Source: Tropicibacter naphthalenivorans (GTDB taxonomy: Bacteria > Pseudomonadota > Alphaproteobacteria > Rhodobacterales > Rhodobacteraceae). From it: DNA of 64,000 nt. Location: positions 1 through 64,000 of the forward strand of contig NZ_FWXX01000004.1 of NCBI RefSeq assembly GCF_900176475.1, read 5' to 3'. The position numbers were made by a program, and so were the translations under genes. A model generated the notes under the pieces. The model was not told where the DNA came from, did no database searches, and worked only from the letters and a program-made list of their open reading frames with translations. This document shows, piece by piece, positions 5,791 to 44,350 of this stretch (positions within the stretch are counted from its first letter, which is position 1; the number at the start of each line of letters is the position of its first letter).

Positions 5791-5867
5791 GGGAAAACTC
5801 CTTTGACTGCGGAGCGGTCTCCGCGTTTTATGGGGTTGGCTGTAACATAGACATCCCCCGCCTCGGT

Positions 5868-7142
5868 TCAATGCGAAAGAAGAAATCGGGCAAAGCTGAT
5901 TTCCCCTTGGCCCCGATGACGAAACGAAATGCCGTGGTTTTCGGCGTCCGTAAGGCCCGCGCAGGCGGTCAGGTGATCGCCTTGCCAGACCGACGGCCAA
6001 GCCAGCGCGACCCGGTGGCGCAGCCCCTCGCGGTGCTCCCTGGGCAGTTGGTCCCAGCCGTCTTGCCCCAGTGCACGCAGGGTGAAGCCCTTGAGGTCAG
6101 GCGCCTTTACCGTCCAGCTTGTGTCCCAGTTGGCCGTCTCGCTTGTATCGTCAACGGTGCCGCACATCTGCGCGACTGAGGCATACTCTCGGAAAATAGT
6201 TAACCGCCCGTTTACGAATTGCAGATCGCAGCCGTGAAGCGTCCCTGCCCCGCCGCTGGTGACGCGGCTGACCAAGGCGTCCAGCGGCGCGGCGCGTGGG
6301 CCATACTCCGCCCCTGCGACATAGCGCAGCGCGGCGTTCAGCAGGCGTCTTTGGGTGGCGACCTCGGTCTGAGCGGCCCAGTCGGGGTGCAGCGACAGCA
6401 CCGGGCCGTCTTGCGCGCCAAAACGGTTCCAGATGTCGGCGGCGCGGGCGTTCAGCGCTGCGCGTTCGGCGCGCAGGTGTTCGGCGGTCTCGGCTAGCGT
6501 CTCGCGCGCAAACCCGTGGGTTTGCAGCAAAGGCAACAACGCGCGCATCCGGGCGCGCACGTAGGCCGGGTCGTCGTTGCTGGGATCGTCGACAAAGGGC
6601 GATTTCAGCACGGTCGCATAGTGGCGCAGCTCGGCGCGGGCCATGCCAAGGCAGGGGCGGACCAGCGTCATGCCACTGGCCAGCGCGCGCAAGGGCTGCA
6701 TCGCCGACAGCCCGTCCAGCCCCGCCCCGCGCGCGAGGCGCATCAGAAAGGTCTCGGCCAGATCGTCGCGCGTGTGCGCCAGTAGGACGTGGGCGATCTG
6801 ACCGCGCCACGCGTCGATCAGGCGCAGACGGGCGCGGCGGGCGGCATCCAGCTTGTTCCCCGTGCCGTCCCACCGCCAGCGCAAAATGGTATGCGGATGG
6901 CCCAGCAGCGCGCATTCTTCGGCGACCATCTGCGCCTCGGCGGCTGACTCAGGGCGCAAACCGTGATCCACCGTCACCACATGCAGGCGCACGCCCCACG
7001 CGCGCGTCCAGTTGTGCGCCAGCAGCAGCATCGCCATGCTGTCGCCGCCGCCCGACACGGCCAAAGCCACGTCAGACGGAAAAGAGGGGCCCAGAAGGCC
7101 CCCCATCGCATCCGCAAACCGCTTGTCCAGCGTCACTGGCAT
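5868..7142 (-). CDS. tilS: tRNA(Ile)-lysidine synthetase
   Basis: 424 aa from MPVTLDKRF. It carries the N-type ATP pyrophosphatase loop SGGGDS (30-35), with [11 protein letters not shown] and [17 protein letters not shown], all hallmarks of TilS. TilS converts C34 of the AUA-reading tRNA-Ile to lysidine, and is essential. Translation is coupled: its ATG overlaps the last 10 nt of cpoB upstream. A longer in-frame reading exists but would run deep into cpoB, so the short start is preferred. Confidence 0.94.
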
Positions 7143-39630: not shown

Positions 39631-40704
39631 TTACTTACTCAAACCGCCATGCAGCGTCGGCACGTCCAGCGACGCAAAACCGTAATGGCGCAGCCAGCGC
39701 AGGTCGCTGTCAAAGAAGGCGCGCAAATCCGGGATGCCGTATTTCAGCATCGAAATCCGGTCGATCCCCATGCCAAAGGCAAAGCCCTGCCATTCCTCGG
39801 GGTCGACGCCCGCCGCTTGCAGCACCTTGGGGTGCACCATGCCCGAGCCAAGCACTTCGAGCCAGCCGTCGCCCTCGCCGATCTTGAGCTGACCGTCCAC
39901 CCACGAACACTGGATATCGACCTCGGCCGACGGCTCGGTGAAGGGGAAGTGCGAGGCGCGGAAGCGGGTCTTGATCCCGTCGATCTCGAAGAAGGCGGAA
40001 AAGAACTCTTCCAGCACCCACTTGAGGTTCGCCATCGAGATGTCCTTGTCGATCGCCAGACCTTCGACCTGGTGGAACATCGGGGTGTGCGTCTGGTCGT
40101 AGTCGGCGCGGTACACCCGGCCCGGCGCGATCACCCGGCAGGGCGCGCCGAACTTTTCCATATGGCGAATCTGCACCGGAGAGGTGTGGGTGCGCAGCAC
40201 GTGCGGCGGGCGGTCATCCCCCTCGGCGCGGTGCATGTAGAAGGTGTCCATCTCGGCCCGCGCAGGGTGATGCGAGGGGATGTTCAGCGCGTCGAAGTTG
40301 TACCAGTCAGTGTCAATCTGCGGCCCTTCCGCCACCGAGAACCCCATGTCGGCAAAGATCGCGCTGACCTCTTCGGTCACCTGGCTGATCGGGTGGATGG
40401 TGCCCCGACGCTGGGTGCGCACGGGCAAGGTGACGTCCAGCCACTCGGCCTTGAGACGCTCATCCAGCGCGGCGTCGGCCAAGGCTGCCTTTTTCGCCGC
40501 CAGCGCGGTGTTGATTTCGTCCTTGAGGGCGTTCAGCGCAGGCCCGGCAACCTGGCGCTCTTCGGGGGTCATCTTGCCCAGCTCGCGCATTTGCAGGCTG
40601 ATCTCGCCCTTCTTGCCGACGGCCTTGACGCGCAGGTCCTCCAGCGTGGCTTCGTCGCCAGCCTTGGCAATCAGTTCGATGTACTTGGCGCGCAGATCGT
40701 CCAT
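39631..40704 (-). CDS. pheS: Phenylalanyl-tRNA synthetase alpha subunit
   Basis: 357 aa from [16 protein letters not shown] lies 7 nt before this ATG (a GTG one codon upstream is possible). N-terminal coiled coil, then class II core with motif 2 ([34 protein letters not shown]) and motif 3 ([18 protein letters not shown]). Charges tRNA-Phe with PheT. Its own terminator follows at once, so pheT needs another promoter or read-through. Confidence 0.97.
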
Positions 40705-40865
40705 CACGGGGCCTCCTGAAAAAGTCGCCCTCTGCTAGCACATTTCGGCCCGTGTGCAAGCTGTTCCCCGCCAATGCAAAGACGTGCCTGAAATTTTACT
40801 TTAGGATCAACAGAGGCGGGCGTAGGGTCAAACGAACTGCAACACTTCGCTTTATCAGGCATTTC

Positions 40866-42443
40866 ATGACCAAACGCACCGAATTCCGGGTCCATTGGCC
40901 GGACATCGCCCCCCAAATCCAAGCGCTCAGCACCGATGCGCAGCTGCCCCAGGCGATCGCCCTGCTGCAAGAGACGCTGGAACTGGATGCTGCGGACCTT
41001 AGGCGCACCGATGTGTCGCATGTGCCGGACGCGCGGCTGGTCCGCCACGTCAAGGAAACAGAGCGGCTGGCGCGGCTGCACCTGCGGCTCAAGGAGATGC
41101 CCGCAGCGCATCAGACCATCCGCGCGGCGCTGGCCTTTGCGGCCCAGACCGGTCAGACCGTCAGCCCGTGGATCATGCTGGCGGGCCTGATGCTGGAGCG
41201 TAAGGACACCGAGGCCAGTGCGATCCTGCGCGACGCGCCAGAGCTGTCCCCGATAGAGCTGCGCCACCTGACGCAAATCGCGGTGGACGCAGGCGCGGGC
41301 GCGGCGGGCGAGATTCTCGCGCATCGGGTGCTGACGACCCAAGGCCCGACGCAGACCTTCTACGCCTTGCTGCTAGAGGCGCGCGCCATCCACGACCCGG
41401 ACACCCTGCTGAGCAAGATCGCGCAGGACATCGCGGACGGGCTGATCACGCGCGAACTGGCCCCCGTGGTGCGCACCGCGGCGCGCCAAGGCGCAATCAC
41501 CCGCGCGCAACACGCCGAGGCCACCGCCCTGCTGGCGCAAAAATGGCCCGAGGACGCGGCCCTTGCCCGCCGAGCCAAGGCGCTGTCCGCCCCCGGCTTG
41601 GAGTTGCGGGACGACATTGCGCCGCAAGAGCAGGTTCAGCAGATGCTGGACAATGCCCGCCGTATGAACCCGGATGACGCCAAGTTCGAAACCCGCACCC
41701 GGATGCTGGAGCGGCTGGCCGCGTCGAACATGTACCGGCGGGTGATCTCGGACCCTGGCAGCGCCGAGGTGGCCTTTTCGCCCAAGGTCGAGGGCGGCGA
41801 TGTCCTGCTGCGCTTTGCCGGTCTCGCCGAGCCGGGCAAGCTGCATTACCTTGACGCCATGGCCGCCGCTGCCGGGCTGAATGCCATCTACCTCAAGGAT
41901 CCGAACCGGCTGTTTTTCTGTAACGGCCTGCCCAGCATGGGCGGCACGCTGGACAGCACCATCGAGGGGCTGCGCGCCAAAATCGCCGAGTACGGCGAGG
42001 GCCGCAAAGTCACCGTTCTAGGTAGTTCGGCGGGCGGCTATGCGGCGCTGCTGTATGGCGTGTTGCTGGGCGCGGACCGGGTGATCTCGCTGTCCGGACC
42101 GAGCACCGCGCTGCGAGAAGTCGGAGACACGATCAAGGACCGCCGCGTGCGCGCCATCCTGCACCGTTTGGAACAACACACCACTCCCGAAAGCCGCGAC
42201 ATCCGTCTGCAAATCGAGCGCGCCGGGTATTGTCCGCAGCTTGATCTTGTCTATGGCGAGAATAACCGGCTTGACCGCGCCCATGCCGAGCTGCTGGCGG
42301 ACCTGCCGCAGGCGACCCTGCACCCAATCAAGGGCTTTGATGGCCATAACACCATCGCCTACCTGACCGACAACGGCCTGCTGCTGGATGTGCTGCGCGG
42401 CGACATGAGCGGGATCAACAGCGTTGCCGCCGCGAGGACATGA
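40866..42443 (+). CDS. Two-domain protein: helical-repeat N-terminus plus alpha/beta-hydrolase-like C-terminus
   Basis: 525 aa from MTKRTEFRVHWPD (a start at 40752 is possible; neither has a strong ribosome site). Residues 1-270 are helical, TPR-like (LPQAIALLQETLELDAADL, RLARLHLRLKEMPAAHQTIRAAL). Residues about 300-525 look like an alpha/beta hydrolase: nucleophile elbow GSSAGG (Ser388) and late His494 in GFDGHNTIAY. Preceded by FFCNGLPSMGG. Substrate unknown. The stop overlaps the ATG of the radical-SAM remnant (ATGA), so both were once translationally coupled and probably act on one product. Confidence 0.62.
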   Translation: MTKRTEFRVHWPDIAPQIQALSTDAQLPQAIALLQETLELDAADLRRTDVSHVPDARLVRHVKETERLARLHLRLKEMPAAHQTIRAALAFAAQTGQTVSPWIMLAGLMLERKDTEASAILRDAPELSPIELRHLTQIAVDAGAGAAGEILAHRVLTTQGPTQTFYALLLEARAIHDPDTLLSKIAQDIADGLITRELAPVVRTAARQGAITRAQHAEATALLAQKWPEDAALARRAKALSAPGLELRDDIAPQEQVQQMLDNARRMNPDDAKFETRTRMLERLAASNMYRRVISDPGSAEVAFSPKVEGGDVLLRFAGLAEPGKLHYLDAMAAAAGLNAIYLKDPNRLFFCNGLPSMGGTLDSTIEGLRAKIAEYGEGRKVTVLGSSAGGYAALLYGVLLGADRVISLSGPSTALREVGDTIKDRRVRAILHRLEQHTTPESRDIRLQIERAGYCPQLDLVYGENNRLDRAHAELLADLPQATLHPIKGFDGHNTIAYLTDNGLLLDVLRGDMSGINSVAAART

Positions 42444-42844
42444 ACGCTCCGCTCCATGCCCCTGCCCGGCTTGATGCCGCCCGTCTGCGCGAAATGCGCC
42501 GCAAGATCGGCCCGATGCGCGCCAGCACCTACGACATCTCGGCGGTCTGCAACCTGACCTTCGAGGGATGAGTGCTCTTTGCCAAGGGCGGCGCGCGGCG
42601 GCTGACCTATCGCTTTTTCTCGCCCACTCTGGCCTATCAGCCGCGCACCCCCGGCGACGCGCGGGGCGATTACATGCGGCTGGATTGCGGCAACCGCCTG
42701 AGCGACTTGCACCGGCATTATGAGAGTGACGGCAGTGCCAGCGCGGGCAAATGCCGTTCGCCGAACGTCGATTGCCGGGACTGCCGCGCCTACGAGCAAC
42801 GAACCTGTGGTACGAGCTGTTTATGCCCTTGGACTCGTGGCTTA
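42440..42844 (+). pseudogene. Radical-SAM protein remnant
   Basis: Frame opens MNAPLHAPARLDAARLREM and reaches SAVCNLTFEG, then TGA (42569). Family members here have CNLTCEGC, the CxxxCxxC iron-sulfur site. So the second Cys (TGC) has become Phe (TTC) and the third Cys position is the stop. The same frame continues with LFAKGGARRLTYRFFSPTLAY and a Cys-rich end (KCRSPNVDCRDCRAYEQRTC), like a C-terminal cluster domain. The middle (barrel) is missing, so an internal deletion is inferred. The sequence ends in the OmpA gene. Confidence 0.65.
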
Positions 42845-43756
42845 GTGCGCGGCGGCGTGCTCTGCCGTGCGGTCGGTCACCACGAACTCGACCCGGCGGT
42901 CGATCACGTCGTAGTGCTGGCAAAAGTCCGGGTGATCCTCGGTCAGGTGGCTGACGGTGTTGAAGGTTTCGGTCTCAAACCCCGCCGCCTTGATCACCGC
43001 GACCACGGCCTGCGCCCGGCGCAGACTGACAAGGCGGTTCGATTCGGTGCTGCCCAGCGGGTCGGCAAAGCCCATCAGCGTGATCTTGGCCTCGGGGCAG
43101 GATTGCACCGCCGCCGCCATTTGCAAGGCTACGCTGGTGGCCAAGGGGGTCAGCTCGGTCGAGTTGGGGCCGAAATAGATGCGCGAGCGGTCGGCGATGG
43201 TCTGAAGCTCGGCCACGCAGGGCGTCAGGGTCGGATCGGGCATCGGCATGTCCATATGCGCGTGGTCGTCATGCTCGGGCTCGGCGATGGGCTGGGCGAC
43301 AGGCGCTGGTGTCGGCTCTGCTGCGGCAGCGATAAGCGGCTCGGCAACAGGATCAGCCGTGGCCACGACGATGGGTTCGGGCAGGTCCAGCGCCTCATTC
43401 AACGGCAGGTCGGATTTGAGCGCCGCGAGGATGTCTTGCGCACTGACGGCCGGCTCTTCAAAGGTCTCCGGGGCGGCGGCGGGCAGAGGATCGGGCAGCG
43501 GGACGGCGGTCGGCATCGGCGTCATCGCCGGCGCGATCACGGGGATGTCGGGCTGCGCCGCAGGTTCGGGTGGCAGCGCCGGGGCAAAGGTGGTGAAATC
43601 GTTGCGGGCCACCTCTTCGCTTGGTTCTGGCAGCCCCTGCTGGTTCAGCATATTGAGCAACAGCATCACCAAGTACAGCTGCGTGGCCAGAAATCCGCCC
43701 GCCAGCACCCAGCCCAGCGTCTTGAGATGAAACCGATTTGCCGCCGTCTTTTGCAT
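42842..43756 (-). CDS. OmpA-family protein with long proline-rich linker
   Basis: 304 aa. Membrane helix near the N-terminus (LGWVLAGGFLATQLYLVMLLL, about 13-35), Pro/Ala-rich linker (about 50-175) and C-terminal OmpA domain (YFGPNSTELTPLATSVALQMA, LMGFADPLGSTESNRLVSLRRAQAVV). The peptidoglycan-binding Asp and Arg are present (FADPLGST, RRAQAV). Inner-membrane anchored and reaching the wall. Its 3' end overlaps the radical-SAM remnant by a few bases. Confidence 0.85.
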   Translation of the reverse strand: MQKTAANRFHLKTLGWVLAGGFLATQLYLVMLLLNMLNQQGLPEPSEEVARNDFTTFAPALPPEPAAQPDIPVIAPAMTPMPTAVPLPDPLPAAAPETFEEPAVSAQDILAALKSDLPLNEALDLPEPIVVATADPVAEPLIAAAAEPTPAPVAQPIAEPEHDDHAHMDMPMPDPTLTPCVAELQTIADRSRIYFGPNSTELTPLATSVALQMAAAVQSCPEAKITLMGFADPLGSTESNRLVSLRRAQAVVAVIKAAGFETETFNTVSHLTEDHPDFCQHYDVIDRRVEFVVTDRTAEHAAAH

Positions 43757-43984: not shown

Positions 43985-44350
43985 TTAGGCTGCCAGCGCG
44001 CCTTTTGCCTGATCGACGATCGCAGCAAAGGCTTCGGGCTCGTGCACGGCCAGATCTGCCAGAACCTTGCGGTCCACTTCGATGCCGGCCAAGTTCAGGC
44101 CGTTGATGAACTTGGAGTAGGTCAGTGCTTCGTCATGCGCGCGCACAGCGGCGTTGATGCGCTGGATCCACAGAGCGCGGAAGTTGCGCTTGCGGTTATG
44201 ACGGTCGCGGGTTGCGTACTGGTTGGCCTTATCAACGGCCTGTGCTGCAACCTTGAAGGTGTTCTTGCGACGGCCGTAGTAACCTTTGGCTGCCTTGATG
44301 ACCTTCTTGTGACGTGCGTGCGTAACGGTTCCGCCTTTGACTCGGGACAT
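43985..44350 (-). CDS. rplT: Ribosomal protein L20
   Basis: 121 aa. [33 protein letters not shown] and [18 protein letters not shown] are diagnostic for bL20. Binds 23S rRNA early in large-subunit assembly. Follows rpmI by 14 nt. In E. coli the operon begins with infC; here no infC is present. Confidence 0.98.

Follow-up and report, generated by a model that had tools for sequence, protein, structure and literature searches.

Radical-SAM enzymes of the twitch/SPASM type (SkfB, BlsE, AbmM, SpeY and anSME) are the closest described counterparts of one half of the locus analysed here, having in common with its intact relatives the CxxxCxxC motif, the predicted fold and a C-terminal set of cysteines for a putative auxiliary cluster. 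The other half resembles the alpha/beta-hydrolase esterases and acyltransferases (HSL-like esterases, S-formylglutathione hydrolases, Ag85C and the Gap123 complex), with which it shares the fold and the Ser-Asp-His triad. Prokaryotic viperins (pVip) come close by a partial likeness of fold and by a weak profile match in many relatives of the radical-SAM protein. The locus lies in a 64,000-nucleotide stretch of Tropicibacter naphthalenivorans DNA (hereafter the window) and departs from all three. Specifically, the radical-SAM family has a C-terminal motif of its own (C267, then KCCxPxxDCxxCR) and has a TPR-hydrolase or acyl-transfer enzymes as its coupled partners, its copy in the window being dead; compared with pVip, it has an invariant C-terminal cysteine motif and different neighbours, and its member in Tropicibacter alexandrii goes unmatched. 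The window hydrolase, unlike the known esterases and acyltransferases, carries an N-terminal TPR-like domain, scores below the Pfam Abhydrolase cut-off and is coupled to a radical-SAM gene. The parts are of known kinds, and their combination was not found described in the literature searched. Our results establish the hydrolase and radical-SAM pair as a real recurring two-gene module, of which the radical-SAM half is dead in the window. The features of the locus are as follows.

39631..40707, minus strand: pheS, the left boundary of the insertion, which adjoins rplT in most relatives.
40866..42443, plus strand: TPR-like / alpha-beta hydrolase gene, 525 aa, intact, with the triad S388 (in GSSAG), D470 and H494.
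42440..42443, plus strand: ATGA stop/start overlap, the translational coupling site, where the hydrolase stop overlaps the next ATG (42440) by 4 bases.
42440..42583, plus strand: radical-SAM pseudogene, retained block 1 (about aa 1-50 of the intact protein).
42548..42571, plus strand: destroyed CxxxCxxC, with Cys-1 kept as TGC (42548), Cys-2 (C43) changed to TTC, Phe (42560-42562), and Cys-3 (C46) changed to a TGA stop (42569-42571).
42584..42601, plus strand: junction of deletion 1, where about 132 codons (aa 51-182) are replaced by 6 unalignable codons.
42602..42685, plus strand: retained block 2 (aa 183-210).
42683..42685, plus strand: junction of deletion 2, with aa 211-265 (about 55 residues) gone, in frame, at a shared GAT codon.
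42683..42796, plus strand: retained block 3 (aa 266-302), in which the candidate auxiliary-cluster cysteines C267, C289, C296 and C299 are readable.
42802..42843, plus strand: retained block 4 (about aa 328-338), in a shifted frame, the native stop lost.
42842-43756: OmpA-like gene between the pseudogene and rplT.
43985..44350, minus strand: rplT, the right boundary.

The frame downstream of the hydrolase reads MNAPLHAP...YDISAVCNLTFEG*VLFA, and its start resembles a radical-SAM protein. A reading made earlier from the letters of the window alone (the sequence-only reading) had described the ATGA overlap, the loss of the second and third cysteines of CxxxCxxC to Phe and a stop, and a C-terminal cysteine-rich end that can still be read; all three descriptions hold, and the window gene has no functional CxxxCxxC. 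Alignment shows the four retained blocks to be collinear with the intact gene of T. alexandrii, which encodes 339 aa, and a single stretch of 39 residues matches the T. alexandrii protein at E=2.3e-12, so that the homology is not due to chance. The same alignment bears out the absence of the middle part that the sequence-only reading had noted, with the correction that three deletions rather than one are involved and that the damage had been understated: the first two deletions preserve the frame, and the third, of about 26 residues, breaks it. Gone with the deleted segments are the GAEP and TNG elements, W127 and R137, in addition to the loss of both C43 and C46, and the frame, devoid of its native stop, continues to 43790. 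Given the three deletions, the frameshifted 3' end and the lost stop, the gene is dead, not dying as had been proposed. Within the retained blocks, 13 of 16 strongly conserved positions are kept, which would fit a fairly recent loss. No second radical-SAM copy was found in the genome to which the window belongs.

The hydrolase, by contrast with its dead partner, has kept both its open reading frame and its triad. S388, D470 and H494 are invariant in an alignment of relatives (12/12), as is G386; the last glycine of GxSxG is not universal among them. An AF2 model of the protein (pLDDT 80) comprises an N-terminal helical repeat domain followed by an esterase domain, and its matches to esterases, Ag85C and Gap123 (Z ~16-17) place the predicted structure in the alpha/beta-hydrolase fold. 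The TPR-like character attributed to the N-terminal region needs a qualification: helical hairpins are visible there in the model, and the Pfam TPR profile exceeds its cut-off in two relatives (L104 and L122), is sub-threshold in a third (L073) and falls below the cut-off in the window copy.

Both genes are intact in T. alexandrii (strain LMIT003, locus L072), where they are syntenic, lie next to pheS and show the identical ATGA overlap. In most Rhodobacteraceae relatives, rplT lies just upstream of pheS with neither a hydrolase nor a radical-SAM gene between them, and the pair therefore represents an insertion at this site. A genome of another genus (G020) carries at the same site a hydrolase gene with an Acyl_transf_3 gene behind it and without a radical-SAM gene (L034:8016-10727). 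The hydrolases of the window and of T. alexandrii are sisters in the tree (support 100/99), yet they are only about 37% identical (49% in the domain), as against 94% for pheS and 89% for pheT. This points to very fast evolution of the module or to the receipt of a different version at the site by one of the two species.

The AF2 model of the T. alexandrii radical-SAM protein (pLDDT 86.5) is predicted to have a radical-SAM fold with a C-terminal extension of the twitch/SPASM type, matching SkfB with Z 18.5 over 250 residues and BlsE with Z 18.1 over 256, followed by anSME (Z 16.8), viperins (~16), AbmM and other SPASM/twitch enzymes. SkfB is also the best solved relative by sequence (2.9e-9). 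Across 61 aligned members of the family, the intact relatives carry CxxxCxxC, and C39, C43, C46, G84, E86, N109, G110, W127, R137, C289, C296 and C299 are invariant; C267 is conserved in 90%, and together with C289, C296 and C299 it is a candidate ligand of an auxiliary [4Fe-4S] cluster. No curated family has matches throughout the group, and at 0.001 the T. alexandrii member finds no counterpart among the NCBIfam models and is missed by Pfam Radical_SAM; literature searches found nothing relevant. As far as tested, this agrees with the earlier suggestion of a modification pathway not named so far.

Scanning about 85,000 species genomes with a five-member radical-SAM alignment yielded 80 loci, and 73 of these (L072-L144) entered the survey; the alignment served in place of a single-sequence hydrolase query, which retrieved no relative from the genome contig collection. 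A hydrolase relative lies beside the radical-SAM gene at 13 of these 73 loci, and a further genome (G210) and the window bring the number of pair loci to 15. They span Rhodobacterales, Sphingomonadales, Maricaulales and Hyphomicrobiales, in organisms including Tropicibacter, Shimia, Tropicimonas, a Paracoccus MAG, Maricaulis, Jiella, Cohaesibacter, Acuticoccus and Methylopila; named strains with an intact pair are T. alexandrii, Shimia sagamensis, Maricaulis alexandrii, Jiella pelagia and Cohaesibacter marisflavi. The two genes are directly adjacent at 14 of the 15 loci, frequently overlapping and in either order (reversed at five), the one exception being a locus where 1.2 kb and a TauD-like gene separate them (L075). 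The ATGA overlap of four bases occurs at six loci (the window, T. alexandrii, G210 (L035), L073, L076 and L077), and an overlap of eight bases is one available start choice at five (L093, L133, L099, L090 and L122). The hydrolase match is weak at L082, L090 and L099. At L133 (G190, Rhodobacteraceae MAG-99; 5857-6952), the hydrolase-paired radical-SAM gene is frameshifted, by independent decay or assembly error.

Since the pair is intact in a genus-mate and recurs at 15 loci, the module is real, in line with the proposal that the two genes once acted together; the search for relatives with the hydrolase beside an intact radical-SAM gene, suggested at the time, succeeded in T. alexandrii and other Rhodobacterales. 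The companion suggestion of a conserved third gene did not hold, none recurring convincingly at the 15 pair loci. The supposed pathway is thus at least a two-enzyme module, and its substrate probably originates elsewhere in the cell. Among 394 Rhodobacteraceae genomes, these searches placed a hydrolase relative in 27, a radical-SAM relative in 6 (window included) and both in 4 (window included). The sequence-only reading had held that a hydrolase occurring in many genomes without a radical-SAM partner would speak against the coupling. This is the case in part, as only 4 of the 27 hydrolase-bearing Rhodobacteraceae have a detectable radical-SAM gene, but co-occurrence nonetheless exceeds chance (hypergeometric P=2.4e-4), and wherever a genome of the family has both genes they stand side by side. 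The existence of hydrolase relatives without a radical-SAM gene also makes survival of the hydrolase alone plausible. Apart from the window, no radical-SAM remnant was found beside uncoupled hydrolases among the top matches. Hydrolase pairings are scattered over the radical-SAM tree, and a search of plasmids returned one hydrolase relative; the radical-SAM relatives there were all distant, and their neighbours were NRPS, ACP, TauD or phenylacetate-type genes.

Beyond the pair, the neighbours of the wider radical-SAM family at the 73 loci are P450 (19), MBOAT (14), the hydrolase (13), a TPR-LpxL-like acyltransferase (12), ketosynthase (9), GDSL (8), carbamoyltransferase (6), a GNAT-like protein (5), B12-type radical-SAM (5), TauD-like (4) and DUF4915 (3), where the labels MBOAT, B12-type and TauD-like come from sequence reading and clustering and GNAT-like is our own label for a protein without a Pfam family. 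Like the hydrolase, the TPR-fused LpxL-like acyltransferases (for example, L120 and L126) combine a TPR region with an acyl-handling domain and neighbour genes of this radical-SAM family; they differ from it in the catalytic domain, standing alone with the radical-SAM gene in one subclade and with P450 or carbamoyltransferase in others. Because acyl-handling neighbours recur, and two kinds of them are TPR-fused, we propose the hydrolase as an acyl-transfer or deacylation partner. The survey as a whole is mixed, with acyl-transfer enzymes beside P450, dioxygenase, carbamoyltransferase and ketosynthase genes, which counts against a single family-wide chemistry. Several individual loci deserve mention. 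An HlyC-type acyltransferase gene lies immediately upstream of one radical-SAM gene (L083:5335-5838). Members from Myxococcota and Desulfocapsa (L127-L140) have two tandem radical-SAM genes, mostly followed by ketosynthase genes, and at L128 there is a glycosyltransferase that may include a carrier domain. On a Methylomagnum plasmid (L068:7356-16148), genes for an acyl carrier protein, a TauD-like dioxygenase, a radical-SAM member annotated as hypothetical and an NRPS stand in a row.

Several models can be envisioned for what the pair does. One possible, though not probable, role is modification of an envelope glycan, in which a surface polysaccharide would have the hydrolase as its O-acyl esterase or acyltransferase and one of its sugars would be altered by the radical-SAM enzyme. 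The twitch enzymes BlsE, AbmM and SpeY act on sugar or nucleoside substrates, and the first two also turned up as fold matches. Uncoupled hydrolase relatives occur near genes for glycosyltransferases, sulfotransferases, UDP-sugar dehydrogenase, FkbM and ABC-2 exporters, some are fused to a polysaccharide pyruvyltransferase, and the relative on a Novosphingobium plasmid is near CMP-KDO genes. The Acyl_transf_3 gene behind the G020 hydrolase and the strong divergence of the hydrolase between sister species, compared with pheS, point the same way. Set against this, no glycan gene is conserved next to the pair at any of the 15 loci, and the pairs of the window and of T. alexandrii adjoin housekeeping genes. 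We consider it improbable that the module matures a RiPP, with the radical-SAM protein as an SkfB-like peptide maturase and the hydrolase as a tailoring or processing enzyme: SkfB leads both by sequence and by fold, and the NCBIfam matches of the relatives include peptide-modifying SPASM enzymes, but no short open reading frame (at least 30 aa) within 4.5 kb proved to be conserved among the 15 pair loci.

An antiviral role, in which the radical-SAM protein would be a prokaryotic viperin and the hydrolase its accessory, appears highly unlikely. Although 49 of the 61 members match the PADLOC pVip model weakly (best 5.3e-8) and viperin structures are among the fold matches, the T. alexandrii member lacks such a match, the best fold matches are SPASM/twitch enzymes, the C-terminal Cys motif is invariant and, apart from generic TPR, the hydrolase family has no hit among the defence models. 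These weak matches mean that automated defence annotation could mislabel this radical-SAM family. Equally unlikely is an incidental association, that is, a dead gene that came to stand behind the hydrolase by chance and shared no function with it. It could draw on the fact that most hydrolase relatives in Rhodobacteraceae have no radical-SAM gene, and it is largely refuted by the 15 loci, the occurrence of both gene orders, the ATGA overlap in six and the adjacency in every family genome with both genes.

The reading that we prefer, and to which we give about even chances, is that the window holds a decayed copy of a two-gene tailoring module made up of a TPR-like serine hydrolase/acyltransferase and a twitch-type radical-SAM enzyme, translationally coupled. 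In such a module, the intact radical-SAM enzyme would bind a SAM-binding cluster on CxxxCxxC and one auxiliary cluster on C267, C289, C296 and C299, and would carry out a radical oxidation, an epimerisation or rearrangement, or a bond formation on a small or carrier-bound substrate. The next step would fall to the hydrolase, which would transfer or remove an acyl group by means of its Ser-Asp-His triad and might use the TPR-like repeats as a docking surface. In the genome of the window, where the radical-SAM enzyme is lost, the acyl-handling step alone could remain, and the hydrolase may still be in use.

More tentatively, the family may represent an undescribed class of tailoring modules, in which one twitch radical-SAM family works with exchangeable acyl-transfer partners, several of them TPR-fused (the hydrolase and the LpxL-like enzymes), towards an acylated product, the hydrolase pair being the minimal form. 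Under this model, the window would exemplify a hydrolase that outlasts the loss of the radical step. Starting from the dead gene of T. naphthalenivorans, one arrives at a radical-SAM family that is live, has not been curated, occurs in Pseudomonadota, Myxococcota, Thermodesulfobacteriota and other groups, and pairs repeatedly with acyl-handling enzymes.
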